Assembly: GCF_002261335.1 (NCBI RefSeq)
Contig: NZ_NEVL01000003.1
Span: 434,001-498,000 of the forward strand
Reading direction: 5' to 3'
DNA: 64,000 bases
Source: Bordetella genomosp. 1
GTDB lineage: Bacteria; Pseudomonadota; Gammaproteobacteria; Burkholderiales; Burkholderiaceae_B
Part shown: positions 49,565 to 64,000 of the stretch, piece after piece
Position numbering within the stretch: the first letter of the stretch is position 1
Layout: each line of letters begins with the position of its first letter
The notes under the pieces: model-generated
What the model saw: only the letters and a program-made list of their open reading frames with translations
Database searches by the model: none
What the model was told of the DNA's origin: nothing
Made by a program: the position numbers and the translations under genes

Positions 49565-50887
49565 ATGCAACCGAATCGCCGCACCCTGATTGCCTTGCTC
49601 GGCGCCGCCGCGCTTCCCGTGCGCTGGGCCGCCGCGGCGTCGGGCGCGCCCGACGCGCGCACGATCGAACAGGCCTACCTCTATCTGCTCGGCCGCATGC
49701 TGGTGCTGCGCCAGGAGCATGCCGACCGCGCGGTGCCCGACTTCGCCTACAACCAGATCCGCTACAACCCGCTGGGCTCGGCGGACTTCGTCAACCCCAA
49801 TTTCGACGTGGCCTACCTGGAAGCGTGGGTCGCCGTCGACGAGCGCACTCCCGTGCTGCTCACGGTGCCGCCGGTCAGCGGGCGCTATTACACCGCGCAG
49901 ATCCTGGACGAATGGGGCGAGGTGATCGCCAACATCAACGAACGCAATTTCGCCTCCCAGCCTTCGGGCACGTACGCACTCGTCGCGCCGGGCTGGCAAG
50001 GTGACCTGCCGGCCGGCGCCGCCCGCATCGTGCTGCATTCGCGCAAGGCCAAGCTGCTGGGTCGCATCGAGCTCAAGGACGATCCGGAGGGCGCCGTCAA
50101 ACTGCAGCGCGCCTTTGCGCTGCGCGCGCTCGGCACGCCGCTCATCGCGCCGCCGCCTGCCGTGCCCGCGTTCGACAACAAGACGCTGCTGGGCGCGGAA
50201 ATCTTCGACGCCGCCGACGCCTGGATCGCGAGCGCGTTCGACGTGTCTCCGGTCGCAGCGCAGATGCAGCAGCAGGTGCGCGCCGTGGCGGCCCATGTGG
50301 CCGCGTCGCGCGAGGCACGGGCCGCCGTCGACACCCAGCTGCGCGATCAGGTGGTGCCGCGCTTCATCGAGTACGCCTTCACCAAGAGCGCGCCCTACCG
50401 CAATCACTGGGTCGGCGGCAGCGCCACCGGCAACTACGGCAGCAACTACCTGCTGCGCACGGTGGTCAACTACGCCGGCATCTGGGCCAACACGGTCGAC
50501 GAAGTGATCTACTTCGTGGCGACCCGCGACGCCGACGAGGCGGTGCTGAACGGCAGCAACAGCTACGTGATCCACTTTCCCGCCGACCGGCTGCCGCAAG
50601 CCGCGGTCGACGCCTACTGGTCGGTCATTCTCGTGAGCGTGCCGGATTACCGCGTCGTGCCCAACGACCTGAAACGCTACAACTTCAACAACCATTCCGG
50701 CCTCGCGCCCGAGGCGGATGGCTCGCTGAAGATCGCCATCGGCCCGCAGGCCGTCTCCGGCGTGCCCGCGTCGAACTGGCTGCCGGCGCCGCCGGGCAAG
50801 GCCTTCTCCCTGACCTTCCGCACCTACGTGCCGAAGGACAGCGTGAAGAACGGGACCTGGACGCCGCCGCCCGTGACCCGTCTCTGA
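49565..50887 (+). CDS. DUF1254/DUF1214-domain protein, exported
   Basis: 440 residues from the ATG at 49565; a GTG at 49544 would add seven residues. The N-terminus NRRTLIALLGAAALP has a twin-arginine look, with cleavage near AAAA-SGA. DUF1254 covers about 60-190 (FAYNQIRYNPLGSADFVNPN, YYTAQILDEWGEVIANIN) and DUF1214 about 320-425 (NGSNSYVIHFPADRLPQAAV, YWSVILVSVPDYRVVP). Function is not established; homologues are common secreted proteins. It lies inside the plus-strand envelope gene cluster. Confidence 0.88.
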   Translation: MQPNRRTLIALLGAAALPVRWAAAASGAPDARTIEQAYLYLLGRMLVLRQEHADRAVPDFAYNQIRYNPLGSADFVNPNFDVAYLEAWVAVDERTPVLLTVPPVSGRYYTAQILDEWGEVIANINERNFASQPSGTYALVAPGWQGDLPAGAARIVLHSRKAKLLGRIELKDDPEGAVKLQRAFALRALGTPLIAPPPAVPAFDNKTLLGAEIFDAADAWIASAFDVSPVAAQMQQQVRAVAAHVAASREARAAVDTQLRDQVVPRFIEYAFTKSAPYRNHWVGGSATGNYGSNYLLRTVVNYAGIWANTVDEVIYFVATRDADEAVLNGSNSYVIHFPADRLPQAAVDAYWSVILVSVPDYRVVPNDLKRYNFNNHSGLAPEADGSLKIAIGPQAVSGVPASNWLPAPPGKAFSLTFRTYVPKDSVKNGTWTPPPVTRL

Positions 50888-51125: not shown

Positions 51126-51749
51126 ATGAACGATCGCAGTGCAGGTCTCACGCAGTCGCGCCGCGGCGCGCTGCCCCTGGCCATGGCACTGACCGCCGCG
51201 CTCGCCGCCGCGCTCGCGCTGGGCGGCTGCGCCGGCTCGCCGTCATCCCAGCGCAGCACGGGCGCGCAAGGCAGCAGCGCGGCGCAGATGACGCGCGAGG
51301 CCGAGACGGCGTTGCGCCAGCTTTACGCACAGACACCCAGCGCGCGCACGCTCGGCGACCGCGCCGTGGCCGTGCTGGTGTTCCCGTCCATCGTGAAGGC
51401 CGGCGTGCTGGTGGGCGGCGAGCACGGCACGGGCACCCTGCTGCGCAAAGGCAAGGAGCTGGGGCATTACGACATTTCGGCCGGCTCGTTCGGCCTGCAG
51501 GCAGGCATGCAGACCTTCAGCTACGCGCTGTTCTTCATGAACGAGGCCGCGCTGCGATATCTCGACCAGAGCGACGGCTGGGCCATCGGGGCCGGGCCCA
51601 GCGTGGTGGTCTGGGACCAGGCCGCGGCCGCCAGCGTGACCAGCACCACGCTGTCGCAGGACGTCTACGCCGTGCCGTTCGGACAAAAGGGGCTGATGGC
51701 CGGCATCGGGCTGGAAGGCTCGAAGATCACCCGGATCCACCCGCAATGA
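51126..51749 (+). CDS. SYLF (YSC84)-domain lipoprotein
   Basis: 207 residues from the ATG at 51126, behind GAGAGG. Lipobox LALGGC-A near residues 36-42, so it is a lipoprotein. The SYLF lipid-binding domain spans about 75-205 (AVAVLVFPSIVKAGVLVGGE, GHYDISAGSFGLQAGMQTFS, DVYAVPFGQKGLMAGIGLEG). In eukaryotes this domain binds phosphoinositides; in bacteria its role is unclear. Plus-strand neighbour of the DUF2092 and Pro-rich genes. Confidence 0.92.
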   Translation: MNDRSAGLTQSRRGALPLAMALTAALAAALALGGCAGSPSSQRSTGAQGSSAAQMTREAETALRQLYAQTPSARTLGDRAVAVLVFPSIVKAGVLVGGEHGTGTLLRKGKELGHYDISAGSFGLQAGMQTFSYALFFMNEAALRYLDQSDGWAIGAGPSVVVWDQAAAASVTSTTLSQDVYAVPFGQKGLMAGIGLEGSKITRIHPQ

Positions 51750-51820: not shown

Positions 51821-52624
51821 ATGTTCAGACTGGCTTGCACCGCCGCGGCGCTGACCCTCGCGCTGCTCGGCGCCGCGCAGGCGCAGCCGGCCGTGCCCGA
51901 GGCGCGGGCACCGGCGGCCGAGGCGCGCGCGGTGGACCCGGCCGCCGTGCAGGCGCTGGCCCGCATGGGCGCGGCCCTGCGCGCGCTGCCCGCGTTTCAT
52001 GTGCACGCGCAATCATCGACCGACGCCGTGCTCGACACCGGCCAGAACGTGGCGGTGATCCACCGGACCGACCTCGACGTGCGCCGCCCGGACCGCGCCC
52101 GCGCCCGCATCCAGGGCAATGGCGCCGACAAGGGCATGGTGTACGACGGGCGTCACTTCACGCTCTACACCGCGGGCGCACCGGGCCGGCCCGGCTACTT
52201 CAGCACCCTGCCCGCGCCGCCCGACCTGGAGGCGCTGGTCGACTGGCTGGCGCGCGACTACGGCATCGAGCCGCCGCTGGCCGATCTGGTCTACTGGGGC
52301 CGATCGCCCGACGACGCCAGCCAGCTGGTCGACGCGCAGGCGCTGGGCGTGGACCGCATCGGCGGCCAGCTGTGCCATCACTATGCGTTCCGCCAGCCCG
52401 GGGTGGACTGGGAGCTCTGGGTGCAGGCGGGCGCGCGGCCACTGCCCTGCCGGCTGGTGTTGACCGACCCCTCGATGGTGTCGCGGCCGCGCCATCAGGT
52501 CGACTACACCTGGACCCTCGCGCCCGGCTTCGCCCCGGGCGCGTTCACCTTCCGGCCCGAGCCCGGCGCGCGCGCGTTGCCGCTGGAGGGCCCGACGCCG
52601 TCCGAACCGGGAGCGCCGCAATGA
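51821..52624 (+). CDS. DUF2092-domain secreted protein
   Basis: 267 residues from the ATG at 51821, behind GGAGGAATCGCC. Signal peptide 1-19 (AALTLALLGAAQA-QPA). The DUF2092 body resembles LolA/LolB-type half barrels: LPAFHVHAQSSTDAVLDTGQ, RPDRARARIQGNGADKGMVY, FYTAG-like strands and HHYAFRQPGVDWELWVQAGA. A periplasmic lipid- or lipoprotein-handling role is inferred only from that fold. Coupled by ATGA (52621) to the Pro-rich gene. Confidence 0.88.
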   Translation: MFRLACTAAALTLALLGAAQAQPAVPEARAPAAEARAVDPAAVQALARMGAALRALPAFHVHAQSSTDAVLDTGQNVAVIHRTDLDVRRPDRARARIQGNGADKGMVYDGRHFTLYTAGAPGRPGYFSTLPAPPDLEALVDWLARDYGIEPPLADLVYWGRSPDDASQLVDAQALGVDRIGGQLCHHYAFRQPGVDWELWVQAGARPLPCRLVLTDPSMVSRPRHQVDYTWTLAPGFAPGAFTFRPEPGARALPLEGPTPSEPGAPQ

Positions 52625-53352
52625 AGAAACCGGCCCTGATGCTTTGCGCCGCCAGCGTGGCGGCGGGCGCCCTCAGTCCGGACGCGGCTGCGTTCCGGGT
52701 GGTGGGCGGCGCGCGCAGCAGCCTGCACGGCGCGGGCGGCTATCACCACTTCGAGGGCGGCGGCGCCCATTTCAACGGCGCGAGACCGGCGCATTTCGGC
52801 GGTGGCGGCGCACAGCCGCATCCGGGTTTCCAGCCCGAGCCGCGCCCCATGCCCACGCCCGGCCCGCATCCCACGCCGCAGCCGGGACCTCACCCCGGCC
52901 CGCATCCGGAACCAGGCCCGCATCCCGGGCCGCATCCTGGGCCGCATCCTGGGCCGAATCCCGGCCCGCATCCTGGCCCGCATCCTGGCCCAAATCCGGG
53001 CCCGCCGCCCGGCCCGCATCCGGGCCCCCAGCCCGGACCGCCGCCCGGACCAGGACCGGGACCGCACCCCGGCCCGCCGCCCGGGCCCGGGCCGCACCCG
53101 CCGGGTCCCTATCCGTACTATCCGCCTCCGCCGCCCGACCCCTGGGGCTGGGGCTGGTACGACCCGGTGGCGGTGGGCGTGACGGTCGGCGTGACTGCGG
53201 CCGTGATCGGCGCCATGGTGGCGTCGCTGCCGCCCGGGTGCACGAGCGTGCAGGTCAACGGCATCGCCTACCAGCAATGCGGTTCGACCTGGTACCAGCC
53301 GGTCTATGTGGGCACGACCGTGCAGTTCAAGGTGGTGGCCGCACCGCGCTGA
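52621..53352 (+). CDS. Secreted Pro/Gly/His-repeat protein with DUF6515-like C-terminus
   Basis: 243 residues. Signal peptide about 1-24. A His/Gly-rich segment (GGYHHFEGGGAHFNGA) precedes about 100 residues of PGPHP-type repeats (66-173). Then come a hydrophobic stretch (VAVGVTVGVTAAVIGAMVAS) and a C-terminal domain with two cysteines (GCTSVQVNGIAYQQCGSTWY, VGTTVQFKVVAAP) as in DUF6515 proteins. The repeat may cross the cell wall or bind metal through its histidines. Coupled to the DUF2092 gene; it converges on the barrel protein gene. Confidence 0.85.
   Translation: MKKPALMLCAASVAAGALSPDAAAFRVVGGARSSLHGAGGYHHFEGGGAHFNGARPAHFGGGGAQPHPGFQPEPRPMPTPGPHPTPQPGPHPGPHPEPGPHPGPHPGPHPGPNPGPHPGPHPGPNPGPPPGPHPGPQPGPPPGPGPGPHPGPPPGPGPHPPGPYPYYPPPPPDPWGWGWYDPVAVGVTVGVTAAVIGAMVASLPPGCTSVQVNGIAYQQCGSTWYQPVYVGTTVQFKVVAAPR
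52846..53139 (+). repeat. Coding tandem repeat (Pro-Gly-Pro-His units)
   Basis: Units such as GGGCCGCATCCTGGGCC recur head to tail, with CATCC and AATCC variants. They encode PGPHPGPNPG runs of the preceding entry. Near-identical copies around 52920-52990 are prone to slippage in multiples of six bases or more, all in frame. Confidence 0.85.
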
Positions 53353-53379: not shown

Positions 53380-54528
53380 CTAGCGCCAGGCGCTGCCCAC
53401 CTGGATGTAGAAGGCGTTCTGCTGGCTGCTGTGCGCCACGTCCACGCCCACCGACAGCCCGAGCTTGCGCGCGATCAGGTAGCGAAAGCCGGCGCCCACG
53501 CTCGACACGCTGGAGGCCTCGCCGAAGGTCTTCCAGTTGCCATAGGCCTTGCCCACGCCCGTGAAGCCCAGCAGCGACCAGCGCGGCGTGAGGGCGTAGC
53601 GCAGCTCCACTTCGCCGGTGAGCACGCTGCGATCCTGGTAGCGGCCGCGCGCCACGCCGCGCAGGTCGATGTAGGGCTGCGCGTAGAACGGCACCGTGCC
53701 CGAGGTGGTCTGGCCGTCGCCGCGCAGCCCCAGCGTCCATTTCTGCGCGATCGGCAGCCAGGTATAGGCGCGCAGCCGGTAGCTTTCGTAGTCCTGGTCG
53801 CTGCCGGCCCAGCCGCGCGCGAACTGGGCCTCGAACTCGCCGTAGCTGCCGCGCGTGGGATAGAACATGTTGTCGCGGTTGTCGTAGTCGATCACCAGGC
53901 CGGCCTTGCCGATGTGCTTGTCGAGCTCGGCGCGCGACAGCTCGGTGGCGCGCTCCCCGGTGAAGCGGGTCTCCGAGCGCATGTAGGTGTAGCGCGGGCC
54001 CACGTACCAGTGGCTGTCGCCGATCCGCGCCAGCAGCTGCTGCACCAGGAACGTGCCCTTGATCTCGTAGCTGCGGCCGCGGTTGAGCATGCCGTAGTAG
54101 TCCAGGTTCATGCGGCCCTGTGCCAGCGCGCCGAGATAGCGGTAGCGATCGCCATCCCAGGTGTGGAAGTGGAACAGGCCGCCGCCGCGCGAGCCGTTTT
54201 CGGTCATCATGCCGCCCACGCCGGTGATGTTGGGCGGCGCGACCGACTCGCCGCGCGCCTTGGCCTGCGCGCCCGCCTCGGCCATGGATTCGGAGAAGTA
54301 CAGCAGCATCAGGCCGCCGCCATAGCCGACCGCGGGCTCGGTGATGAGCGCCGGCACCGGCATCACGCCGCGGTGATGCAGCAGGAAGTCGCTGATGTCG
54401 AAGGCGCCATCCTCCGGATCGCGCCACGACAGGCCTTCCGCCGCGGCGCCTTGCACGGCCAGCGCGGCCATCAGCGCGGCGACGCGCCGTGCCCGCCGCG
54501 CGGCCGGCCGCCCTGCCCGCGCCGTCAT
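53380..54528 (-). CDS. BamA/TamA-family outer-membrane barrel protein without POTRA domains
   Basis: 382 residues from the ATG at 54528. Signal peptide about 1-30 (VAALMAALAVQGAAA-EG). The body is a 16-strand-type surface antigen barrel: VPALITEPAVGYGGGLMLLY, AGLVIDYDNRDNMFYPTRGS, TWLPIAQKWTLGLRGDGQTT, VGAGFRYLIARKLGLSVGVD, ending VGSAWR. There is no room for POTRA repeats, so it is not an assembly factor of the BamA type. It overlaps the fused spermidine-synthase-like gene by 4 bases and ends the minus-strand operon. Confidence 0.88.
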   Translation of the reverse strand: MTARAGRPAARRARRVAALMAALAVQGAAAEGLSWRDPEDGAFDISDFLLHHRGVMPVPALITEPAVGYGGGLMLLYFSESMAEAGAQAKARGESVAPPNITGVGGMMTENGSRGGGLFHFHTWDGDRYRYLGALAQGRMNLDYYGMLNRGRSYEIKGTFLVQQLLARIGDSHWYVGPRYTYMRSETRFTGERATELSRAELDKHIGKAGLVIDYDNRDNMFYPTRGSYGEFEAQFARGWAGSDQDYESYRLRAYTWLPIAQKWTLGLRGDGQTTSGTVPFYAQPYIDLRGVARGRYQDRSVLTGEVELRYALTPRWSLLGFTGVGKAYGNWKTFGEASSVSSVGAGFRYLIARKLGLSVGVDVAHSSQQNAFYIQVGSAWR

Positions 54529-57044
54529 GGCGCCTCCCGGCGCGACTGCCCGGCCAGGAACCAGTTCACGTAGGGGTTGTCGCCGGCGCCCCGCCCCAGC
54601 GCCACCGCGTCGCGCGCCCAGGCCTCGCGGTCGCCGCGGTAGGCGGACAGCGCGGCGCGATACAGCAGGTCCAGCACCGCGCGTTCGCGTTGCATCGCCG
54701 TGTCCAGCGCCGGGTCCGCGCCCAGCAGCGGCGGCGGCTCGCGCAGGGCCAGCAGCGCCGGCAGGCTGCGGGTCAGCTCGCGCGGCCGGACCCAGGTCGC
54801 GTATTCGATGGCGGGCCGGTCGTCGGTCACGGCCGCCGTGCCGGCGGCGAATCGCTCGAGCCCCGCGCGGCCCGTGACCCAGGTGGCCAGCAGCCCGGCC
54901 GCGCCGTTCACGCCCACCTCCGCGAGCGCGTCGCGCAGCGCCGGCTGCGCCATGCGGGCCGCGATCCGCCGTGCGTCCAGCGGCATCGGCTGCATCGATC
55001 CGACCAGCAGCATCTCGTGCACCTCGGTACTCCACAGCGTGGCGTGCGGGAACACGGCAAGAAAGCTGGCGACCAGCGCCTGGGTGTCTTCGAGGTTCTG
55101 CGTGGGCAGGGGCAGCCACTGCGCCACGATGCCGCCGGGCTGCAGGCGTTGTGCGGCCAGCGCGTAGAAATCCTGTGAATACAGGTTCACCACGCCTGCG
55201 GCCGAGGGCGGCGGCGGCTCCAGCGTGATGAGGTCGTAGCGCTCGCGGCTCGCCAGCAGCTCGCGCCGGCCGTCGCGCAGCCGGATCTCCAGCCCGGGAT
55301 CCTGGCTCGCCCCATAAGTGCCCTTGAACAACGGCCCGGCCGCCACCACGCCGGGCAGCAGCTCGGCCACCACGCGCTTGCGCAGATCGGGATGGCGCGA
55401 CAGCGCGCCCGCGGTGATGCCGGTGCCATAGCCGATCACCAGCGCCGAGCGCGGCTCGCCCGTGTGCACGATGAGGGGCAGCAGCGCCTGCAGCCGCATG
55501 TAGCGCAGCGACGGCATCGCGTCGCCCGAGTTCGACACGCCCTGGATGTAGAGGCGGCGGAAACGCCGATCGCCCTCGCCGCGCTCGACCACGGCCACCG
55601 TGCCGCCGTGCGTCTCCTGGTAGAACAGCAGCGCCGCGCCCTGCCCGCCCGGCAGCAGCCGCGCCAGATGATCCGGCGGCAGGGTCCAGCCGATCATGGC
55701 GACGGCGGGCACCAGCGCCAGCGCGATGCCGCGCGCCTGGGCCGCCGTGCCGCCGGCGCGCCAGACCGCCGCGGCGCCGACCAGGCAGGCGGCCAGCGCC
55801 AGGCCGGCCAGCGTGCGCACCACGCCGAACACCGGCAGCAGCACGAAGCCGGTGAGCAGCGAGCCGGCGATGCCGCCCAGCGTGTTGGCGGCCAGCAGCG
55901 CGCCGGCCGCCCGGGCCGCGCTGGCGCGCGCGGCCACGATGCGCAGCACCGCCGGAAACGCGGCGCCCAGCAGGAAGGTGGGGACGAACACCACCACCAG
56001 TCCCGCCAGCGCGAAGCGCGCGCTCATGCCGGCCATCCGGCTGTCGGTGGCGCGCCACGCGGCCATCTCAGCCCAGGTCTGCGCCTGCACCAGCCAGCGG
56101 CCCAGCAGCGCGACTTCGACCAGCGCCACCACCCCGGCGAGGGCGACCAGGAAGCCGAACACGCGCCATGGATCGCCCAGGCGGTGGCCGACGCGCGCAT
56201 GCACGGCCGCGCCCAGCGCCAGCCCGGCCAGGTAGACCGCCAGCACGATAGAGAAGGCAAAGGCGCGGGTGCTCATGAACGGCACCACCATCTGCGACCA
56301 CAGGATCTCGTAGCCCAGCGCGAGCGCGCCGGCCGCGCCGTACAGGGCGATCGCGAACCGCGCCTCGCCGTCCAGCGGCCCGACCGGCGCGGCGGGCGCT
56401 GCCTCCGCGGCCTGCGCCCGCCGGCTCCAGAGCCAGGCGCCGGCGCCGGCCGCCAGGTTGAACGCCGCGGCCGCCCAGGCGGTGCCGGACACGCCGAGGG
56501 CCGGGATCAACACGAAGGCGGGCAGCAAGGCGCCCGCGATGGCGCCGGCCGTGTTGGCCGCGTACAGCGTGCCGCCGGCACGCGCGGCCGCCGCGCCGCC
56601 CACCGCGCGCAGCATGGCGGGCACGGTCGCGCCCATCAGCAGCGGCGTGATGCCGACCACCACGAACAGCAGCACCCAGGCCAGGATGCCGTCGTAGGCC
56701 GCAAAGGCCGGGGCGGCGCGCGCCAGCACCGCCGTCACGACGACGCCCAGCCCGGCCGCGCCCAGCTCGAGCGCGGCAAAGAAGCGCAGCGGCCGGGCGC
56801 TCGCGGCGGCGCGGCGGCCGAGCCGCCACGCGCCCAGCGCCAGGCCGAGAAAAAAGGCGCTCACGGCGACGGCGATGGCATGTGCCTCGACCCCGACGAT
56901 GAGCGAAAGCTGCTTGATCCAAAGGATCTGGAAGATCAGCGACGCGGTGCCCGACAGGGCCAACAGGCCGCCTGCCACGACCATCCCGGCCCCGGCCCGG
57001 TCATGCCGCAACGCCGTGCCACTCATGATGCTCGCACCCTGCAT
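54525..57044 (-). CDS. Fused membrane transporter-like / spermidine-synthase-like protein
   Basis: 839 residues from the ATG at 57044, with AGGGGA just upstream. The N-terminal ~450 residues hold about 12 membrane helices (GLLALSGTASLIFQILWIKQ, VLLFVVVGITPLLMGATVPA, ANTLGGIAGSLLTGFVLLPV). The C-terminal domain has the spermidine-synthase Rossmann fold (ALVIGYGTGITAGALSRHPD, NLYSQDFYALAAQRLQPGGI). The usual acidic site reads LITLEPPPPSAAGVVNL, so aminopropyl transfer is doubtful. It may modify a membrane or exported substrate. It lies between the arylsulfatase and barrel genes in one operon. Confidence 0.9.
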   Translation of the reverse strand: MQGASIMSGTALRHDRAGAGMVVAGGLLALSGTASLIFQILWIKQLSLIVGVEAHAIAVAVSAFFLGLALGAWRLGRRAAASARPLRFFAALELGAAGLGVVVTAVLARAAPAFAAYDGILAWVLLFVVVGITPLLMGATVPAMLRAVGGAAAARAGGTLYAANTAGAIAGALLPAFVLIPALGVSGTAWAAAAFNLAAGAGAWLWSRRAQAAEAAPAAPVGPLDGEARFAIALYGAAGALALGYEILWSQMVVPFMSTRAFAFSIVLAVYLAGLALGAAVHARVGHRLGDPWRVFGFLVALAGVVALVEVALLGRWLVQAQTWAEMAAWRATDSRMAGMSARFALAGLVVVFVPTFLLGAAFPAVLRIVAARASAARAAGALLAANTLGGIAGSLLTGFVLLPVFGVVRTLAGLALAACLVGAAAVWRAGGTAAQARGIALALVPAVAMIGWTLPPDHLARLLPGGQGAALLFYQETHGGTVAVVERGEGDRRFRRLYIQGVSNSGDAMPSLRYMRLQALLPLIVHTGEPRSALVIGYGTGITAGALSRHPDLRKRVVAELLPGVVAAGPLFKGTYGASQDPGLEIRLRDGRRELLASRERYDLITLEPPPPSAAGVVNLYSQDFYALAAQRLQPGGIVAQWLPLPTQNLEDTQALVASFLAVFPHATLWSTEVHEMLLVGSMQPMPLDARRIAARMAQPALRDALAEVGVNGAAGLLATWVTGRAGLERFAAGTAAVTDDRPAIEYATWVRPRELTRSLPALLALREPPPLLGADPALDTAMQRERAVLDLLYRAALSAYRGDREAWARDAVALGRGAGDNPYVNWFLAGQSRREAP

Positions 57045-57095
57045 GTGTTCCCCTGGATGGTGCGCGCCCGGGCCGGGCCCGGACGCGCGTGCCGC

Positions 57096-58733
57096 TTACT
57101 TGGCCTGCTTGGCCTGTTTTTCCTGCTCTTCGAAGTGCTTTTCCATCGACTTCTTCACGCGTTCCTGCACCTGGTCCACGCTGAAGCTGGCCGGCCGCTG
57201 GCTGGGCGGATAGGTCACGAAGGTCTCGAGGAATTCCGAGGCCTTCATGGTCGCGATCGCGGTCAGGTAGGAGTTGGTGGCGAGCCAGTCGTTGTACTGG
57301 TCGGACGTGATGTCGGCCCGCTCATACGGGTCCATGCGCAGGTTGAAGATCTTCGGCACCCGCAGGCACACGAACGGGTCCTGCCAGATGTTGAAGTTGC
57401 CGGGCGCGCGCTGTTCGCAGAACACCGCCTTCCAGTTGCCCCAGCGCATCCCCACCAGCATGCCGTCGTCGTTGAAGTAGAAGAACTCGTCGCGCGCGCT
57501 CTTCTCGCTCTTGCCCTTGAGGTAGTCGAGCTGGTTGAAGCCATCGAGGTGGACGCGGAAGTTGGTCTTGCCCCCCTGCGGCGTCCAGCCCTTGAGCAGA
57601 CGATCCTTGATGTCGGTATCGCCCACCGCGGCCAGCAAGGTCGGGAACCAGTCCATGCCCGAGACCATCTCGTTCTTCACCACCCCGGCCGGGATCTGGC
57701 CCGGCCAGCGCACCATGGCCGGCACCCGGAACGCGCCCTCCCAGTTCGAGTCCTTCTCGCTGCGGAACGGCGTGGTCGCGGCATCGGGCCAGGTGAACGC
57801 ATTGGGCCCGTTGTCGGTGGTGTAGATCACGATGGTGTTGTCGGCGATGCCCATGTCGTCGAGCTTCTTGAGCAGCTTGCCCACGTCCTGGTCATGCTCC
57901 CACATGCCATCGGCGTAGTCGTTGCCCGGCATGCCGCTCTTGCCCTTGTGCTCGGGCCGGATGTGCGTGTAGATGTGCATGCGCGTGGTGTTCATCCACA
58001 CGAAGAACGGCGTGTCGCTCTTGCCGTGCTTGTCGATGTAGTCGAGCGCGGCGCCCACGGTCTCGTCGTCGATCGTCTCCATGCGCTTCTTGGTGAGCGC
58101 GCCGGTGTCCTCGACCTTTCCGTCGGCGCTGGCCTTCACCACGCCGCGCGGCGAGAAGTTCTTCACGTAGGGATCGTTGGGGTCCTTGGGCCAGTACGGC
58201 CGCTCCGGCTCTTCCTCGGCGTTCAGGTGGTACAGATTGCCGAAGAACTCGTCGAAGCCGTGGTTGGTCGGCAGGTACTCGTCCTTGTCGCCGAGGTGGT
58301 TCTTGCCGAACTGCGCGGTGTTGTAGCCGTGCGATTTCAGGGCCTGGGCGATCGTGATGTCGCCCTTCTGCAGGCCGACCGAGGCGCCGGGCGCGCCCAC
58401 CTTCGACAGGCCGGTGCGCAGCGGCGACTGGCCCGTGATGAACGACGAGCGCCCCGCCGTGCAGCTGTTTTCCGCGTAGTAGTCGGTGAACATCGCCCCT
58501 TCCTTGGCGATGCGGTCGATGTTGGGCGTCTTGTACCCCACCAGGCCGTGGGTGTAGGCGCTGATGTTCGACTGGCCGATGTCGTCACCGAAGATGACGA
58601 GGATGTTGGGCTTCTTGGCCGGGCCGCCGTCCTTGGCGGCGGGTTGCGTCTGCGATTGGGCGTGCGCCGCGCAGGCCAGCATGGCCCCGCCCAGCGCAAG
58701 CACGGTCTTGCCTATCAAGTGTCTGACTCTCAT
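57096..58733 (-). CDS. Periplasmic arylsulfatase
   Basis: 545 residues. Signal peptide 1-25 (LALGGAMLACAAHA-QSQ). Sulfatase fold with metal Asp pair in NILVIFGDDIGQ (50-51), the formylglycine site Cys91 in NSCTAGRSSFITG, Lys/His in FGKNHLGDKDEYLP and the second metal site in IYTTDNGPNAFTWP. The site is C-x-A-x-R rather than the commoner C-x-P-x-R; both are known substrates of formylglycine-forming enzymes, and none is encoded in the window. It hydrolyses sulfate esters or possibly phosphonate/choline esters. Gap of 51 bases to the next gene downstream and 41 to the HAD gene upstream. Confidence 0.94.
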   Translation of the reverse strand: MRVRHLIGKTVLALGGAMLACAAHAQSQTQPAAKDGGPAKKPNILVIFGDDIGQSNISAYTHGLVGYKTPNIDRIAKEGAMFTDYYAENSCTAGRSSFITGQSPLRTGLSKVGAPGASVGLQKGDITIAQALKSHGYNTAQFGKNHLGDKDEYLPTNHGFDEFFGNLYHLNAEEEPERPYWPKDPNDPYVKNFSPRGVVKASADGKVEDTGALTKKRMETIDDETVGAALDYIDKHGKSDTPFFVWMNTTRMHIYTHIRPEHKGKSGMPGNDYADGMWEHDQDVGKLLKKLDDMGIADNTIVIYTTDNGPNAFTWPDAATTPFRSEKDSNWEGAFRVPAMVRWPGQIPAGVVKNEMVSGMDWFPTLLAAVGDTDIKDRLLKGWTPQGGKTNFRVHLDGFNQLDYLKGKSEKSARDEFFYFNDDGMLVGMRWGNWKAVFCEQRAPGNFNIWQDPFVCLRVPKIFNLRMDPYERADITSDQYNDWLATNSYLTAIATMKASEFLETFVTYPPSQRPASFSVDQVQERVKKSMEKHFEEQEKQAKQAK

Positions 58734-58774
58734 GACTGCTCTCTCCTTGCCCCGCGGGCATCACCTTCCAACAA

Positions 58775-59800
58775 TCATTGCTGCTCAAACGCGTAAACAC
58801 GACTCCATGCTTCTTGCATATCGACCACCAGCCAACCCTGCTGGCGTGCCAGATCCAATGCCTTGTCCAGGCGGCCGATCTTCGACTCGCGGTCATAGGC
58901 CCATTCGCGCGCCGCGTCGGTGTGGTGCACCAGCGCGGCCAGGCGCTTGCCCGAGCCGCCCATCGTCCACTGCAGCATCTCCAGGTCGCCGTCGGAGTTG
59001 CCGAAGGCCAGGATGGGCCGCTTGCCGATGTGGCGCTGGATCGCCACCGGCTTGCCGGGGCCATCGTCGTTGAAGTCCAGGCGCGGCTGGCGCGTCAGGG
59101 TGGGCACGCCGTTCTCCACCGAATACGCCAGGCCGAAGTGGCTGCCGATCACCTGTTGCGGCGGGATGCCATAGGCCTGCTGGGTCCAGGCCCGCATGAA
59201 GTCGGTGTCGCCGCCCGACACGATGTAGGTCTGGAATTGATGCGCGCGCAGGTAATCCAGCAGCGCGTGCATTGGCGCGTACGTCATCTGCGTGTAGGGC
59301 TGGCCGGTGCGGGGATGGCGCGCGCTGGCGGTCCAGTGCTGCACCCGCTGCGTGAAGACCTCGGTGCTCATGCCCGAGTGCGTCACGCCCACGATCTGCA
59401 TCAGCCCCTTCTCGCCGCTGCGCGCCACGCCCGCCATGTCGCCGGCCAGCACGCTCTTGAAGGGCTCCTGCGTGGTCCAGGCGGGATGCTCGGGCGCCAT
59501 GCGCCGCACCTCGTCCAGCGCGAACTGGACCTGGAAGTACACCGGCTGCTCCGACCACAGCGTGCCGTCGTTGTCGAACACCGCGATGCGGTCGGCCGGC
59601 GCGACATAATCGGGCCCCGGCGTGGTGACGGCCTGCACGAACGCCACCAGCGTGCTGCGCGCGGGGCCGGGCTTCCAGCCCTCGAGCGCGCTCTCCGGGG
59701 TGTCGGAGGGTTTGCTGGCGCCGCATGCGGCCAGCAGCAGCAGGCTGGCGAGGGCCAGCGTGGCGGCGGCGCGCTGCGCCAGGGAGCGGACAGGGGTCAT
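58775..59800 (-). CDS. HAD-superfamily phosphatase, lipoprotein
   Basis: 341 residues from the ATG at 59800. Lipobox LLLAAC-G at about 21-26 anchors it in the envelope. HAD motifs: I AVFDNDGTLWSEQP, II YIVSGGDTDFM, and III/IV ILAFGNSDGDLEML, all with the catalytic acids present. The insertion between I and II is long (APEHPAWTTQEPFKSVL...). It would remove phosphate from a periplasmic substrate. It overlaps BatD by 4 bases and precedes the arylsulfatase. Confidence 0.92.
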   Translation of the reverse strand: MTPVRSLAQRAAATLALASLLLLAACGASKPSDTPESALEGWKPGPARSTLVAFVQAVTTPGPDYVAPADRIAVFDNDGTLWSEQPVYFQVQFALDEVRRMAPEHPAWTTQEPFKSVLAGDMAGVARSGEKGLMQIVGVTHSGMSTEVFTQRVQHWTASARHPRTGQPYTQMTYAPMHALLDYLRAHQFQTYIVSGGDTDFMRAWTQQAYGIPPQQVIGSHFGLAYSVENGVPTLTRQPRLDFNDDGPGKPVAIQRHIGKRPILAFGNSDGDLEMLQWTMGGSGKRLAALVHHTDAAREWAYDRESKIGRLDKALDLARQQGWLVVDMQEAWSRVYAFEQQ

Positions 59801-61119
59801 GAGCGGTCTCCAGGGGCCGGCGCGGCGGCCGGATTGAGGTCGGGCAATGCCGGGGTCGGCGCCGCGTGACGGCGCCATGCGCGGCGCCATCGCGGTGTCT
59901 GCGCCCGCAACAATGCGAGCGCACCGGCCGGATCGGGCCGAGGCCCGAAGTCGGCCGCCAGTATCTGGTCGCCGGCGGCGGTATCGTTCACCGCGGCGGC
60001 GGCCTGGCGCAGGCTGCCGAAGGCGCCGGCGCGCGCCAGCCAGCGATACAGCGCGCCGTAGCGATCCGGCGCCTGGCCGCGCAGCGCGTGGCGCAGGCGG
60101 CCCCAGGCATAGCGCTCGCTGGCGCGCCAGCGCGCCAGCCGCCGGCGCGTGGCCGCCCGCAGGCCCATGGCCGCGCGCCGCAGCGCCGGCCAGCCCAGCC
60201 AGGCCGCCAGCGCCAGCAGCAGCCCGGCCGCGCCCGCATGGAGCCAGGCGCGCGGTACGTGCAACCCGCCCGCCCCGGCTTGCGGAGCCGACGCCAGCGG
60301 AAACGGATCGGCCCGTGCGGGTGCGGCCGTCACTTCGAAGCTGGCGCCGGCCAGCGTCAGCGTGCGGGGCTGCCCGGCCGCGTCGCGCCATTGCACGCTG
60401 AGCGGCGGCAGCGTCACGGTGCCGGCCCGTTCGGCCACGTAGTCGACGCTGTCCGTGCGCTCGCCGCCATTGAAGCCGCCGTGCCCGTCGGTCAGGTTGC
60501 GCACCTCGGCCTCGCGCGGATAGCGCCGCAGGCCGGCGATGTCGCCGAACACCGTGGGCGGGATCAGCATGGCCTGGGCGCCGTCGGCCCGCAGCGTGAC
60601 GCTGCGGCGGATGCGCCCGCCCTGCGGCAGCGGTTGCGCCGAGGGCGTGAATGACTGCGTGGCGTGCAGCGTCTGCGCCACCACGCCCGTGCCCGCCGCG
60701 GCCCCGACGCGCAGCGTGAGCGGCGCGCTGCTCGCCGTGACCGGCGCGCTGGCCTGCCCCAGCCCCGCCGTGACGGCCAGCGCCGGAATCGTGAATTCGC
60801 CGGCCTGCGTGGGCGAAAGCACATAGACGTACTGCAGCCCGTTGAGCGCGACCCCGTCGGCCTCGCCGCGCACGATGCGCGCCTGCCCGCCGGGCGGCGT
60901 CACGAGCACGCCGGGCAGCGTGAGCGCGGGCAGCTGCGGCGGCTGCACGAACCAGGTGGAGGTCATCACGTCCAGCGTCAGGCGCACCGTGCCGCCGGCC
61001 ACCACGGCGCCATCGAGGCTGGCGCGCACCTGCAGGCGGGGCGCGGCGTCCTCCGCACGCGCGCCAGACGGCCCGGCCACTGCGACGCAGAGCAGGAGCA
61101 GGATGGCGAGTCGCATCAT
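59797..61119 (-). CDS. BatD-like membrane protein
   Basis: 440 residues from the ATG at 61119 (MMRLAILLLLCVAVAGPSG). Signal peptide, then beta-rich BatD-type domains (VRASLDGAVVAGGTVRLTLD, VYVLSPTQAGEFTIPALAVT, DSVDYVAERAGTVTLPPLSV), one membrane helix at about 280-300 (LHAGAAGLLLALAAWLGWPA) and a cytoplasmic helical tail. Bat proteins form envelope complexes of unclear function, often with MoxR AAA ATPases. It overlaps the HAD gene by 4 bases and the VWA-TPR gene by 4. Confidence 0.9.
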   Translation of the reverse strand: MMRLAILLLLCVAVAGPSGARAEDAAPRLQVRASLDGAVVAGGTVRLTLDVMTSTWFVQPPQLPALTLPGVLVTPPGGQARIVRGEADGVALNGLQYVYVLSPTQAGEFTIPALAVTAGLGQASAPVTASSAPLTLRVGAAAGTGVVAQTLHATQSFTPSAQPLPQGGRIRRSVTLRADGAQAMLIPPTVFGDIAGLRRYPREAEVRNLTDGHGGFNGGERTDSVDYVAERAGTVTLPPLSVQWRDAAGQPRTLTLAGASFEVTAAPARADPFPLASAPQAGAGGLHVPRAWLHAGAAGLLLALAAWLGWPALRRAAMGLRAATRRRLARWRASERYAWGRLRHALRGQAPDRYGALYRWLARAGAFGSLRQAAAAVNDTAAGDQILAADFGPRPDPAGALALLRAQTPRWRRAWRRHAAPTPALPDLNPAAAPAPGDRS

Positions 61120-62693
61120 GGCGTCGCTCCCGCCGGCGCGTTGCCTCGGTGCGCGGCCTCGATCGCGAACTTGTCGCGCAGGAACTGGGCCGGCGACACC
61201 GAGAGATTGCGCAGCCAGTCGGCCTCCGACGGCGCGCCGGCGCCCGCGGCCGCGATGGGCTTGCCCTTGGCGGCCGCCGCGTCGGCAATGGTCTGGTCGG
61301 GCGGCTCGGCGCCCTGCTGGGTGTCCTCCTGCTGCATGGCGTCGATCAGGCCGTCGACGATGCTCAGGTTGAAGCGGGCCGGCGCCCACTCGGGCCGCAG
61401 CCGCAGGGCCTCGCGGTAGGCCGCGCGCGCCGCGTCGTAGTGATGCAGCCGCACCTGGGTATTGCCCTGGTAGAAGTAGCCCTCGGCGGTGCGCAGCCGG
61501 GCGAAGGCGGCCAGGGCGGTGGCGTAGTCGCCAGCGGCATAGGCGGCGCGCCCCTTCCAGTACGGATCCTGGAAATGCGCGGCCGCCTCGCCGTAGGCGC
61601 CCCGGTCGTAGGCGATGCGGCCTTGCTGGTCGGGCGTGAGAAAGGCGTCGGCGAGCGGACCCGCGCGCACCGGCGTGGGCAGGCCGCCCGCGCATGCCAG
61701 CAGGAGCGCCGCGCCCGTCACGCTCCAGGCCACCGTGTAGCCGCGCCGCACGCAGGCCAGCGCCAGCAGCGCGAGCGGCAGGCACAGCCAGTAGCCCGCG
61801 TCCTTCCACTGCGCCGCGCCGCTGTCCTGCACGCTGGCGAAATGTTGTTGCGCGTGCAAGCGTATCCAGCGCAGGTCGGACGCGTCGCCGGCCAGGCTGC
61901 CCAAGGGCGCATCCAGGGCCTGCGCCATGGTCTTGAGCGCCGCCGCGTCGAAGTCGTCGGCCACCGGATTGCCGCGCGCGTCCAGCCGCGGTCGGCCGGC
62001 GCCGTCGAGCACGGCGCCCACGTTCTGCTGCCCGACCGCCAGCACCAGCACCTGCGGCCCGGCCGCGTTGCGGCGTACCGGGCCGGCGCCATCGGTGAGC
62101 AGCAGCACGGTGCCCGCGCGCGCGGCGTCGCCGAACAGCGAGGCCGCCAGCGCGACTACGCCGTCCACGTCGCGGCCCGGCGCGGCGATCATGCCGGGTG
62201 CCAGCGCATCGATGAACACGTTCAGCATGTCGCTGTCGTCGGTGGGGGGCAGCACCAGATGGGCCGTGCCGGCGTAGGCGACCAGGCCGGTGCGGGCGCC
62301 GCGCCGCTCGGCGACCAGGTCGCGCAGCTTGTGCTGCACCGCTTCGAGACGGCTCGGCGCCACGTCGGTGGCCGCCATCGAGGGCGAGAGATCCACCGCG
62401 GCCACGAGCGGCGCGCGGTTCTCCTGGAAGTCGGGCGCGTCGCGCTGCCACGCCGGGCCGGCCGCCGCGACGCCGCCCACGATGAGCAGCAAGGCGGCCG
62501 CGTCGATGGGCCGCATGCCGCGGCTCGCCGGACCATCCACCCGCAGATACGGCAGCAGCGCGGCGTCGATGGCCGCGTGCGCATCGCGGGCGCGACGCCG
62601 CATCCGCCAGGCCAGCCATAGCAGCGCGCCGGTCAGCGACACGAGCAGCCAGGCCGGGCGCAGCAGGTGCAGCGCGCTCAGGTCGAGGTCCAT
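61116..62693 (-). CDS. VWA-TPR fusion protein (BatB/BatC-like)
   Basis: 525 residues from the ATG at 62693. Two membrane helices near the start, a VWA domain about 85-300 with the metal-site motif in AAVDLSPSMAATD (DxSxS-type), another helix pair at about 320-355, and TPR repeats from about 370 (YDRGAYGEAAAHFQDPYWKG, YYQGNTQ-like, YDAARAAYREALRLRPEW). In other genomes BatB (VWA) and BatC (TPR) are often separate. It overlaps the BatA gene by 16 bases. Confidence 0.92.
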   Translation of the reverse strand: MDLDLSALHLLRPAWLLVSLTGALLWLAWRMRRRARDAHAAIDAALLPYLRVDGPASRGMRPIDAAALLLIVGGVAAAGPAWQRDAPDFQENRAPLVAAVDLSPSMAATDVAPSRLEAVQHKLRDLVAERRGARTGLVAYAGTAHLVLPPTDDSDMLNVFIDALAPGMIAAPGRDVDGVVALAASLFGDAARAGTVLLLTDGAGPVRRNAAGPQVLVLAVGQQNVGAVLDGAGRPRLDARGNPVADDFDAAALKTMAQALDAPLGSLAGDASDLRWIRLHAQQHFASVQDSGAAQWKDAGYWLCLPLALLALACVRRGYTVAWSVTGAALLLACAGGLPTPVRAGPLADAFLTPDQQGRIAYDRGAYGEAAAHFQDPYWKGRAAYAAGDYATALAAFARLRTAEGYFYQGNTQVRLHHYDAARAAYREALRLRPEWAPARFNLSIVDGLIDAMQQEDTQQGAEPPDQTIADAAAAKGKPIAAAGAGAPSEADWLRNLSVSPAQFLRDKFAIEAAHRGNAPAGATP

Positions 62694-63682
62694 GCGCCCT
62701 CCTCCCCGCGTGCACGCGCCGGGGCCCGCCCGGCCAGCAGGTAGGCCAGCCCCTGGCCCGCCGCCAGCAACAGCAGCGCCAGCCCCAGCGGCACCCAATA
62801 GAACTCGTGCTGCACCTGGTGCCGCAGCACCTGCACCGCGCGCGGCGTGATGCGGTCGAGCTCGGCATAGACCTGCGCCAGCGCGCCGCGGTCGGCGGCC
62901 GCGTAGAAGCGGCCGTGCGTGGCGGCGGCGATGGCGCGCAAGGCGTCGAAGTCGACCTTGTCCTCGCCGCTGGCCTGCGGGTCGCCGATGCCGATGGTGT
63001 GTATGGTGATGTGATGCGCCGCCGCCAGCGCGGCCGCGCGGTCGGGCGGCACCACGCTCGCGGTGTCGTTGCCGTCGGTGAGCAGGATCAGCAGCTTGTC
63101 GGGGCCCGGCGCGGCATCGAGCAGGCGGATGCCCAGGCCGATCGCGTCGCCGATGGCGGTGTGCGGCCCGGCCATGCCCGGCTCGACCTGCGCCAGCAGC
63201 CGTTGCAGCGTGGCGTGATCGAGCGTGGGCGGCGCCTGCGGATAGGCGCCGCTGCCGAACACGATCAGGCCGAGCCGGTCGTCGGCGCGCTGCCGCAGAA
63301 AGCCCGCCACCACGTCCTTGACCGCGTCCAGGCGGGACTGGACCCGGCCCTGCGGATCCTTGAAGTCGGTGGCCTCCATCGACTGCGACAGGTCGATGGC
63401 CACCATCAGGTCGCGCAAGGGGCGCTCGCGCGTGGTCGGCGGCTCGACGAACTGCGGGCGCGCGAGCGCGAGCACCAGCAGCAGCCAGACGAGCAGATTG
63501 AGCCAGCGTTGCAGGCCGTGTCCGCGCGGGCGGCCCGGCCGCAGGCCGGTCGCGCGCAGCAGCTCGGGGAAGAACGGCACGCGTAACGCGCCCTGTGCGT
63601 TCACGTAGGCGGGCAGGTAGCGCCAGGCCGCGAATGCGAGCGGCGCGAGCAACAGCAGCCAGGGGTACTCAAGCCGCCACAT
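62678..63682 (-). CDS. VWA-domain membrane protein (BatA-like)
   Basis: 334 residues from the ATG at 63682 (MWRLEYPWLLLLAPLAFAAW). N-terminal helix, second helix about 62-80 (LLVWLLLVLALARPQFVEPP), VWA domain about 90-290 with intact MIDAS (MVAIDLSQSMEATDF; LLILLTDGNDTASV), and a final helix (WVPLGLALLLLAAGQGLAYL). Paired with the VWA-TPR protein, it likely forms the membrane part of a Bat complex. It overlaps the partial DUF4381 gene by 14 bases. Confidence 0.93.
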   Translation of the reverse strand: MWRLEYPWLLLLAPLAFAAWRYLPAYVNAQGALRVPFFPELLRATGLRPGRPRGHGLQRWLNLLVWLLLVLALARPQFVEPPTTRERPLRDLMVAIDLSQSMEATDFKDPQGRVQSRLDAVKDVVAGFLRQRADDRLGLIVFGSGAYPQAPPTLDHATLQRLLAQVEPGMAGPHTAIGDAIGLGIRLLDAAPGPDKLLILLTDGNDTASVVPPDRAAALAAAHHITIHTIGIGDPQASGEDKVDFDALRAIAAATHGRFYAAADRGALAQVYAELDRITPRAVQVLRHQVQHEFYWVPLGLALLLLAAGQGLAYLLAGRAPARARGEEGAWTST

Positions 63683-64000
63683 GATGTCGCTCCATCCAGC
63701 GGCGGCTGGCGCCGAACAGGCCAGCCAGCGTCTCGCGCGGCAGCGCGGCGGCGGCCGGCGGCGCATAGGCCAGCGCGCGCAGGCCTTGCGCGCTGCCCGT
63801 CGCGAAGGCCGGCGCCGGCACCTGCGCGTTGAGCCAATCGACCCAGGCCTGGCCCTCGAGCGCGGCGACCCGGCTGCGCGCCGCTGCCGGCAGGGCCGCG
63901 AGCGCGGTGCGCTTGAGCAAGGCGGGCAAGGCGCGCGCCGCGGCGGCGTCGGCGCCGGCCTGGCGCTCGAGCGCGTCGAGCGCCGCGAGCGCGGCGCGGC
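63669..64000 (-). CDS. DUF4381-like protein (partial, C-terminal part)
   Basis: The frame is open to the right edge, so only the last ~109 residues are present. They are helical and Ala/Leu-rich (ALPALLKRTALAALPAAARS, GQAWVDWLNAQVP, ALPRETLAGLFGASRRWMER), as in the small DUF4381 protein that regularly stands before BatA. MoxR and DUF58 genes would be expected further right. Overlaps batA by 14 bases. Confidence 0.78.
   Translation of the reverse strand, partial: RAALAALDALERQAGADAAAARALPALLKRTALAALPAAARSRVAALEGQAWVDWLNAQVPAPAFATGSAQGLRALAYAPPAAAALPRETLAGLFGASRRWMERHHVAA

Follow-up and report, generated by a model that had tools for sequence, protein, structure and literature searches.

Two routes to formylglycine are known, namely the formylglycine-generating enzyme (FGE), which works with Cu and O2, and the radical S-adenosylmethionine (SAM) enzyme anSME; the modification motif of the sulfatases is C/S-x-P/A-x-R, which has Pro at its third position in the CxPxR form. 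A third sulfatase maturation system was reportedly postulated by Benjdia in 2007 from aslB ydeM mutants of E. coli. Among MoxR-containing systems, mxaRSACKL is thought to load Ca2+ into methanol dehydrogenase, a periplasmic Ca2+ enzyme. This study concerns a gene cluster of Bordetella genomosp. 1 in which an exported sulfatase stands together with a MoxR-Bat gene set and an FGE. The cluster lies at the end of a stretch of 64,000 nucleotides (contig NZ_NEVL01000003.1, positions 434,001 to 498,000; hereafter the window) and continues beyond it.

The cluster resembles FGE/SUMF1 with its S1 sulfatases in that a true FGE by sequence adjoins a Cys-type sulfatase. It differs in its motif, CTAGR, which has Ala for the Pro of CxPxR, and in the full MoxR-Bat set attached to it; in other species, an octaheme cytochrome c-TPR protein is encoded at the place of the FGE. 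The aerotolerance-type BatABCDE/MoxR-VWA operons are similar in that MoxR, DUF58, two VWA proteins, TPR and BatD adjoin, whereas the MoxR type found here is tied to a sulfatase, of which 19 of the 20 Bat loci read in the host's order show no relative. MoxR/VWA pairs are described in PMC13036017 and PMC7159879 as remodelling clients and inserting metals. mxaRSACKL and the NorQD of NO reductase likewise join a MoxR ATPase and VWA partners to one exported or membrane metalloenzyme, a likeness of gene role; in the present cluster, however, a formylglycine sulfatase would be the client, and its oxidase is encoded alongside. In PMC6189696, the Cys-modification machinery of E. coli is called elusive and a third maturation system is cited. 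That postulated system would also mature Cys-type sulfatases without a known enzyme, but the cytochrome is known here from other bacteria, and E. coli may use something else. In the open literature searched, no description of a MoxR-Bat/sulfatase or cytochrome-maturase link was found; most subscription papers lie outside that literature, and a prior description is possible.

The operon is real and extends past the window edge, bringing together the sulfatase, a HAD-family lipoprotein, an MFS/spermidine-synthase-like membrane protein, an outer-membrane barrel, the complete MoxR-Bat set and the FGE (Table 1). The sulfatase carries the sulfatase domain and a signal-like N-terminus, from which export is predicted, and its best solved relative is 7aj0 (2.5e-56). 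Its CTAGR motif occupies residues 91-95 (58463-58449) and conforms to C/S-x-P/A-x-R. In the alignment of three sulfatases D50, D51, C91, R95, K144, H146, D307, N308 and K327 are invariant, positions which we take to be catalytic or Ca-binding in other sulfatases. CTAGR was also present in the stretches printed for the relatives, four loci of which missed the site; the exception, in L065 and only 31% identical, has CTPGR. The FGE domain covers the whole length of its protein (260 bits against a cut-off of 23.3), and the nearest solved relatives are FGEs (6s07, 7.2e-69). The cysteine pair is kept (GGSFLCSDTYC, compared with GGSFLCHESYC in 6s07), and these are presumably the active-site Cu cysteines. 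The cluster FGE is thus a true FGE as judged from its sequence, and Cys oxidation is its predicted activity. The host genome contains seven PF00884 proteins and two PF03781 proteins, the second of the latter being rejected as another FGE owing to its weak match (29% identity over 217 residues).

MoxR, DUF58, VWA, VWA/TPR and BatD genes adjoin as in a MoxR-Bat operon, and the DLSQS of the BatA-like protein and the DLSPS of the VWA-TPR protein presumably represent the metal-ion-dependent adhesion site (MIDAS) pattern. The NCBIfam BatA model, made for Leptospira, matched the BatA-like protein below its cut-off (127.6 bits against 380, 5.1e-37). The solved relative of the HAD protein, PDB 4ovy (3.9e-101), is named only as a HAD hydrolase, and no relatives of this protein were found among viral contigs.

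Linkage of the sulfatase with MoxR-Bat genes

One scan of an 84,980-species genome collection, with the alignment of three sulfatases as query, revealed at least 80 sulfatase loci, and the best 80 were evaluated for gene content by tblastn with the window's proteins, contig ends cutting several of them. The Bat genes were frequent in these loci (MoxR 56, DUF58 56, DUF4381 57, BatA 57, VWA-TPR 60 and BatD 57), and in 56 of the 80, all from other species, MoxR and BatA were both present in the fetched stretch. The co-occurrence with MoxR and DUF58 that the preliminary description had proposed to look for therefore extends beyond close relatives: the loci cover Achromobacter, Bordetella, Pandoraea, Paraburkholderia, Caballeronia, Cupriavidus, Silvimonas and Pseudomonas, as well as several Rhizobiales and one Stieleria contig. 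On the last (L152, from the planctomycete Stieleria tagensis), the sulfatase of the sulfatase-Bat locus groups with those of Rhizobiales, which indicates either transfer or contamination.

The HAD protein (59 of the 80) is a regular partner, and the membrane/spermidine-synthase-like protein (53) and FGE (24) were also found; DUF1254 (16) and DUF2092 (9) are occasional, DUF6515 (6) is often paired with DUF2092, and the barrel (2) is not a regular partner. Barrel relatives near a sulfatase or cytochrome also occur in L039, L186, L188 and L204. In G409, a genome of the window genome's family, a different Bat locus (L178, MoxR 51%) contains a barrel relative of 73% identity together with weak DUF1254 relatives, and Bat, not the sulfatase, may accordingly be what the barrel goes with. 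Another locus of G409 (L065) has an FGE (79%) adjoining a HAD gene (62%), and the only sulfatase nearby, the 31% identical one, lies on the opposite strand; FGE and HAD may thus constitute a separate pair.

Sixty loci with both sulfatase and BatA (57 of the best 80 together with the window, L072 and L172) showed 21 arrangement strings, some cut by contig ends. Among them are arrangements in which the MoxR-Bat genes diverge from FGE-HAD-sulfatase, follow it, or separate FGE from HAD.

The sulfatase has its own type of MoxR. Among 300 genomes of the host's order, the sulfatase type (at least 65% identity) was found in four and the MoxR type (at least 59%) in the same four, the next MoxR being 53% identical; these four are not independent because three of them belong to one family. 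The 23 strongest DUF4381 loci of the 300 genomes included four sulfatase loci (G000, G390, G429 and G526). When the other 19 and G526 were read as controls (4-20 kb each), 19 of the 20 showed no sulfatase, FGE, HAD or membrane-protein relative at 1e-4, and the MoxRs of control Bat loci without the sulfatase were 46-53% identical to the window's type. In the MoxR tree, a single branch separates the 61 sulfatase-linked rows from the 19 unlinked ones (SH-aLRT 87, or 73 before two rows were added), and the DUF58 tree is split likewise with a support of 80. In the sulfatase tree, from which L073 was dropped as a presumed duplicate of L098, all 60 Bat-linked rows of the set fall inside one clade of 83 rows. 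Later plasmid finds from Alloyangia and Vibrio have Bat yet fall outside this clade; the DUF4381-locus and 300-genome controls, and the search for MoxR elsewhere in the genome given below, cover the loci other than these two. Two Pseudomonas strains (L115 with L121; L104 with L124) each have a lone paralogue as well, namely another close sulfatase that has no Bat genes beside it.

FGE or octaheme cytochrome

Unassigned open reading frames (ORFs) of the MoxR-bearing loci were clustered to seek a stand-in for FGE in Pseudomonas. This revealed a recurrent 785-residue protein that combines a hydrophobic stretch at its N-terminus with TPR repeats and eight CxxCH motifs, i.e., an octaheme cytochrome c-TPR protein. 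Eight CxxCH motifs were present in 16 of the 19 aligned relatives and seven in the other three, one of which is cut by a contig end. No NCBIfam model matched the protein above cut-off, and its Pfam matches were heme, TPR and repeat domains only, with no named enzyme.

FGE and the cytochrome were never found at the same sulfatase locus in this set. The 60 sulfatase-Bat loci comprised 22 with FGE only, 30 with the cytochrome only and eight with neither; all 114 sulfatase loci comprised 29, 36 and 49, and the loci without Bat 7, 6 and 41, respectively. The Fisher p values (8e-10 with Bat, 3.5e-6 for all loci and 1.0 without Bat) serve as a guide only, since the rows are related. FGE and the cytochrome swap at least four times on the sulfatase tree (FastTree). 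The cytochrome gene lies after the membrane protein in 26 loci, before MoxR in three and before HAD in one, and it is therefore not one inherited neighbour. Two of the eight loci with neither gene are cut by contig ends (L084 and L139). A genome search for FGE at 1e-30 covered 20 genomes, those of the neither-type loci other than L106 being included where uncut; four of the 20 had an FGE. Three neither-type loci have FGE elsewhere in the genome (L082, L130 and L158), and in two (L128 and L152) no FGE match was found in the genome at this threshold.

The same search gave no FGE match in 14 of the 15 genomes with a cytochrome locus (14 Pseudomonas and Silvimonas). In the exception, P. chlororaphis 14D6, an FGE with GGSFLCAANYC adjoins another sulfatase. 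anSME (TIGR03942) exceeded its cut-off in one of 33 genomes of both types, the cytochrome-type Pseudomonas sp. GL-B-19 (G593). The other radical-SAM matches of Pseudomonas were rejected as anSME: matches below the cut-off occurred in 22 other genomes, and the one checked (G601) was the quinohemoprotein amine dehydrogenase maturase TIGR03906. By these tests, 13 of the 15 cytochrome-locus genomes have neither FGE nor anSME. Seven FGE-like proteins were read from four genomes of the host's order (G347, G353, G428 and G487); in two of them the C-terminal stretch lacked the Cys pair, and the pattern used also missed two closer FGE relatives.

A plasmid search with the cytochrome alone matched 146 of 72,556 records, mostly from Rhizobium and Sinorhizobium. 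Fourteen loci were read, namely 13 plasmid matches chosen for organism spread and one region of R. leguminosarum WSM1689. In 12 of the 14, a sulfatase, known from the annotation or from tblastn, lay at most 9 kb from the cytochrome; none was found within 9 kb in the Alteromonas and Pseudoalteromonas loci. No FGE was detected at 1e-4 in the 13 plasmid loci. The gene order is sulfatase-HAD-MoxR-DUF58-DUF4381-VWA-VWA-hypothetical-cytochrome in Alloyangia and sulfatase-cytochrome-MoxR-Bat in Vibrio sp. THAF190c. On a plasmid of Aureibacter (Bacteroidota; L208, 7084-11178), a sulfatase annotated in two pieces, a cytochrome b, a Rieske protein and the octaheme cytochrome stand in a row, which suggests a path between the octaheme cytochrome and quinones, in either direction. 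Altogether, cytochrome-type sulfatase loci were observed in Pseudomonas, Silvimonas, Vibrio, Rhizobiales, Rhodobacterales and Aureibacter. In L071, from the host's order, the cytochrome adjoins HAD, and no relative of the window's sulfatase is present in the stretch. Two single plasmid records, NZ_CP007047.1 and NZ_CP140299.1, contain both FGE and the cytochrome; the two can therefore share a cell, which weighs against strict replacement. The WSM1689 region (L216, 7799-19764), chosen since both the FGE and the cytochrome search named it, has two sulfatase units that point away from each other on either side of a two-component system; HAD and the cytochrome belong to one unit and FGE to the other.

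Gene layout and neighbouring genes

ORF reading and Pfam matches confirmed all eight minus-strand genes under the family names given in the preliminary description. Operon neighbours overlap by 4-16 bases, except for a gap of 41 bases between HAD and the sulfatase and one of 51 or 69 bases between the sulfatase and the membrane-protein gene; the spacing of at most 51 bases described earlier holds when the latter gene starts at the earlier ATG at 57044. MoxR and FGE lie on the same strand about 235 bases apart. A 14-base tandem repeat of 7.2 copies (66215-66314 in window numbering, outside the window) covers the FGE stop codon and part of this gap, and transcription may be split there. The four opposite-strand genes of the preliminary description (DUF1254, SYLF, DUF2092 and the Pro-rich gene) were likewise all found. 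The Pro-rich DUF6515 gene contains Pro-Gly-Pro-His repeats, and DUF2092 precedes it both here and in the vicinity of several other sulfatases.

Table 1. Features of the cluster and its neighbours in window coordinates; genes beyond 64000 lie outside the window, and the start codons of DUF58, MoxR and FGE are approximate choices.
Feature	Coordinates	Strand	Matches and motifs
DUF1254/DUF1214 exported protein	49565-50887	+	PF06863 1.4e-25, PF06742 2.3e-29
SYLF/Ysc84	51126-51749	+	
DUF2092 exported protein	51821-52624	+	PF09865 1.4e-52
DUF6515 Pro-rich exported protein	52621-53352	+	PF20125 4e-6
Omp85-type outer-membrane barrel	53380-54528	-	PF01103 4.7e-8
Membrane protein fused to spermidine-synthase-like domain (MFS/spermidine synthase)	54525-57026	-	PF01564 7.5e-6; NCBIfam MFS_SpdSyn 5.5e-26
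Exported type I (Cys-type) sulfatase	57096-58733	-	PF00884 2.5e-51
HAD-family hydrolase, predicted lipoprotein	58775-59800	-	PF12710 2e-14; lipobox-like LLLLAACG
BatD-like exported membrane protein	59797-61119	-	PF13584 1e-9
VWA-TPR protein (BatB/BatC-like)	61116-62693	-	VWA_2 2e-13, TPR_2 1e-7; DLSPS
BatA-like membrane VWA protein	62678-63682	-	Pfam VWA 1.6e-17; DLSQS
DUF4381 (gene cut by window end at 64000)	63669-64163	-	PF14316 1.1e-30
DUF58 (outside window)	about 64160-65110	-	PF01882 2.2e-34
MoxR ATPase (outside window)	about 65101-66075	-	PF07726 2.9e-60
FGE (outside window)	about 66309-67460	-	PF03781 2.7e-77

Proposed role of the MoxR-Bat set

The preliminary description had read the cluster as a trans-envelope system with the sulfatase, phosphatase or barrel as possible Bat clients. 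The FGE, which lies outside the window, shifts the reading from a polymer-processing envelope system to an enzyme-activation system, in which the MoxR-Bat complex would be dedicated to activating, in a broad sense, one kind of sulfatase; we consider this reading rather probable. Beside the gene content, conservation, co-occurrence and own MoxR type that were observed, we infer the sulfatase as client, the order of the steps and an ATP-requiring step, as follows. The sulfatase would be exported as an inactive chain whose Cys91 needs oxidation to formylglycine, and the FGE encoded at the cluster head would oxidise it. The MoxR ATPase with DUF58, DUF4381, the two VWA proteins and BatD would form an inner-membrane chaperone complex for this sulfatase kind, spending ATP to hold or remodel the exported protein and thereby allowing oxidation of the Cys, insertion of the active-site Ca2+, or both. 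The HAD and spermidine-synthase-like proteins are conserved partners with a putative step in the pathway. The simplest account of the loci would have one slot for an oxidase of the sulfatase Cys, which either FGE or the cytochrome occupies, with HAD as a regular companion and MoxR-Bat as chaperone machinery serving some of the sulfatases.

Several observations weigh against this dedication of MoxR-Bat to the sulfatase. Co-transcription of the FGE gene is unproven because the gap before MoxR holds the tandem repeat. MoxR and BatA were not both present in the stretch in 24 of the 80 best loci; in four of these (L084, L132, L145 and L146) a contig end carries other Bat genes, and of the remaining 20 genomes, where the sulfatase has no adjoining Bat, 18 have the MoxR type (at least 54%) elsewhere, while it was not found in two genomes searched, a Bradyrhizobium metagenome-assembled genome (L133) and Rhizobium chutanense (L150). 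The BatA tree has no single clade for the linked rows (two changes). Among more distant sulfatases, Bat adjoins in 0 of 17 and 0 of 10 loci (L179-L188), several contigs being short. Because these Bat-less sulfatases mostly have CTAGR where it is printed, Bat is not needed for CTAGR as such, and the motif was rejected as the reason for needing Bat.

It is also conceivable, if unlikely, that MoxR-Bat does no more than load Ca2+ into the sulfatase, taking no part in Cys oxidation. With this sub-case agrees the invariance, in three sulfatase relatives, of residues that are Ca ligands in other sulfatases. In PMC6414531, mxaR-S-A-C-K-L share a gene-number block with the methanol dehydrogenase genes and MxaFI holds Ca with PQQ, and metal insertion by MoxR/VWA systems is described in PMC13036017; however, Ca2+ loading alone leaves the frequent oxidase in the cluster unexplained, and the family has other sulfatases with no Bat beside them. 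About equally doubtful is the view that the client of Bat is a different member of the pathway, be it the membrane/spermidine-synthase-like protein, the HAD lipoprotein or a barrel, and that the sulfatase is a metabolic partner only. The frequencies of the membrane and HAD proteins in the best 80 loci fit this view, as do Bat loci without this sulfatase, one with a barrel relative (L178), but some sulfatase loci have HAD and no Bat, and several Bat-sulfatase loci lack the membrane protein, e.g., L136, L141, L143, L151 and L158.

The originally proposed system, which would strip sulfate and phosphate groups from an external or envelope polymer, is improbable. The exported sulfatase, exported HAD protein and barrel do adjoin, and alpha-L-rhamnosidase and alpha-L-fucosidase genes lie near two cytochrome loci, but no recurring polymer genes were seen, the barrel is rare and the FGE is left out of that proposal. 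The sulfatase was thus a good guess as a Bat client given a linkage beyond close relatives, whereas the barrel as a regular partner is not supported. The HAD protein is a regular partner, and nothing found points to a phosphorylated and sulfated polymer as the substrate. Chance clustering in a mobile island is very hard to credit: some sulfatase relatives do sit on plasmids, but many gene orders, the same genome-level profile and the own MoxR type speak against it.

The octaheme cytochrome c-TPR protein may tentatively be regarded as the sulfatase maturase itself, a third, non-homologous route to formylglycine, though we hold this somewhat less likely than not, and less likely than the dedication of MoxR-Bat to the sulfatase. 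Its TPR part would bind the unfolded sulfatase, and its hemes would pass the electrons of Cys oxidation to the respiratory chain. Alternatively, the cytochrome could serve electron transfer in a pathway using the sulfatase product, which hardly explains the absence of FGE from the cytochrome-bearing loci. We regard the cytochrome as a candidate for the third system of sulfatase maturation, so far missing.

MoxR-Bat complexes are widespread and few have a known client, so that a sulfatase accompanied by a MoxR type and an activating enzyme of its own would be a client that is easily assayed. MoxR-VWA sets with a single client enzyme are of a known kind. The cytochrome at the place of FGE gives a possible route of sulfatase maturation a definite gene, and the WSM1689 region is a natural side-by-side test of the FGE and cytochrome units. 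If the cytochrome is indeed a maturase, it would be a new kind of enzyme, and such a Cys-to-aldehyde enzyme would be of interest for formylglycine-tag protein labelling.

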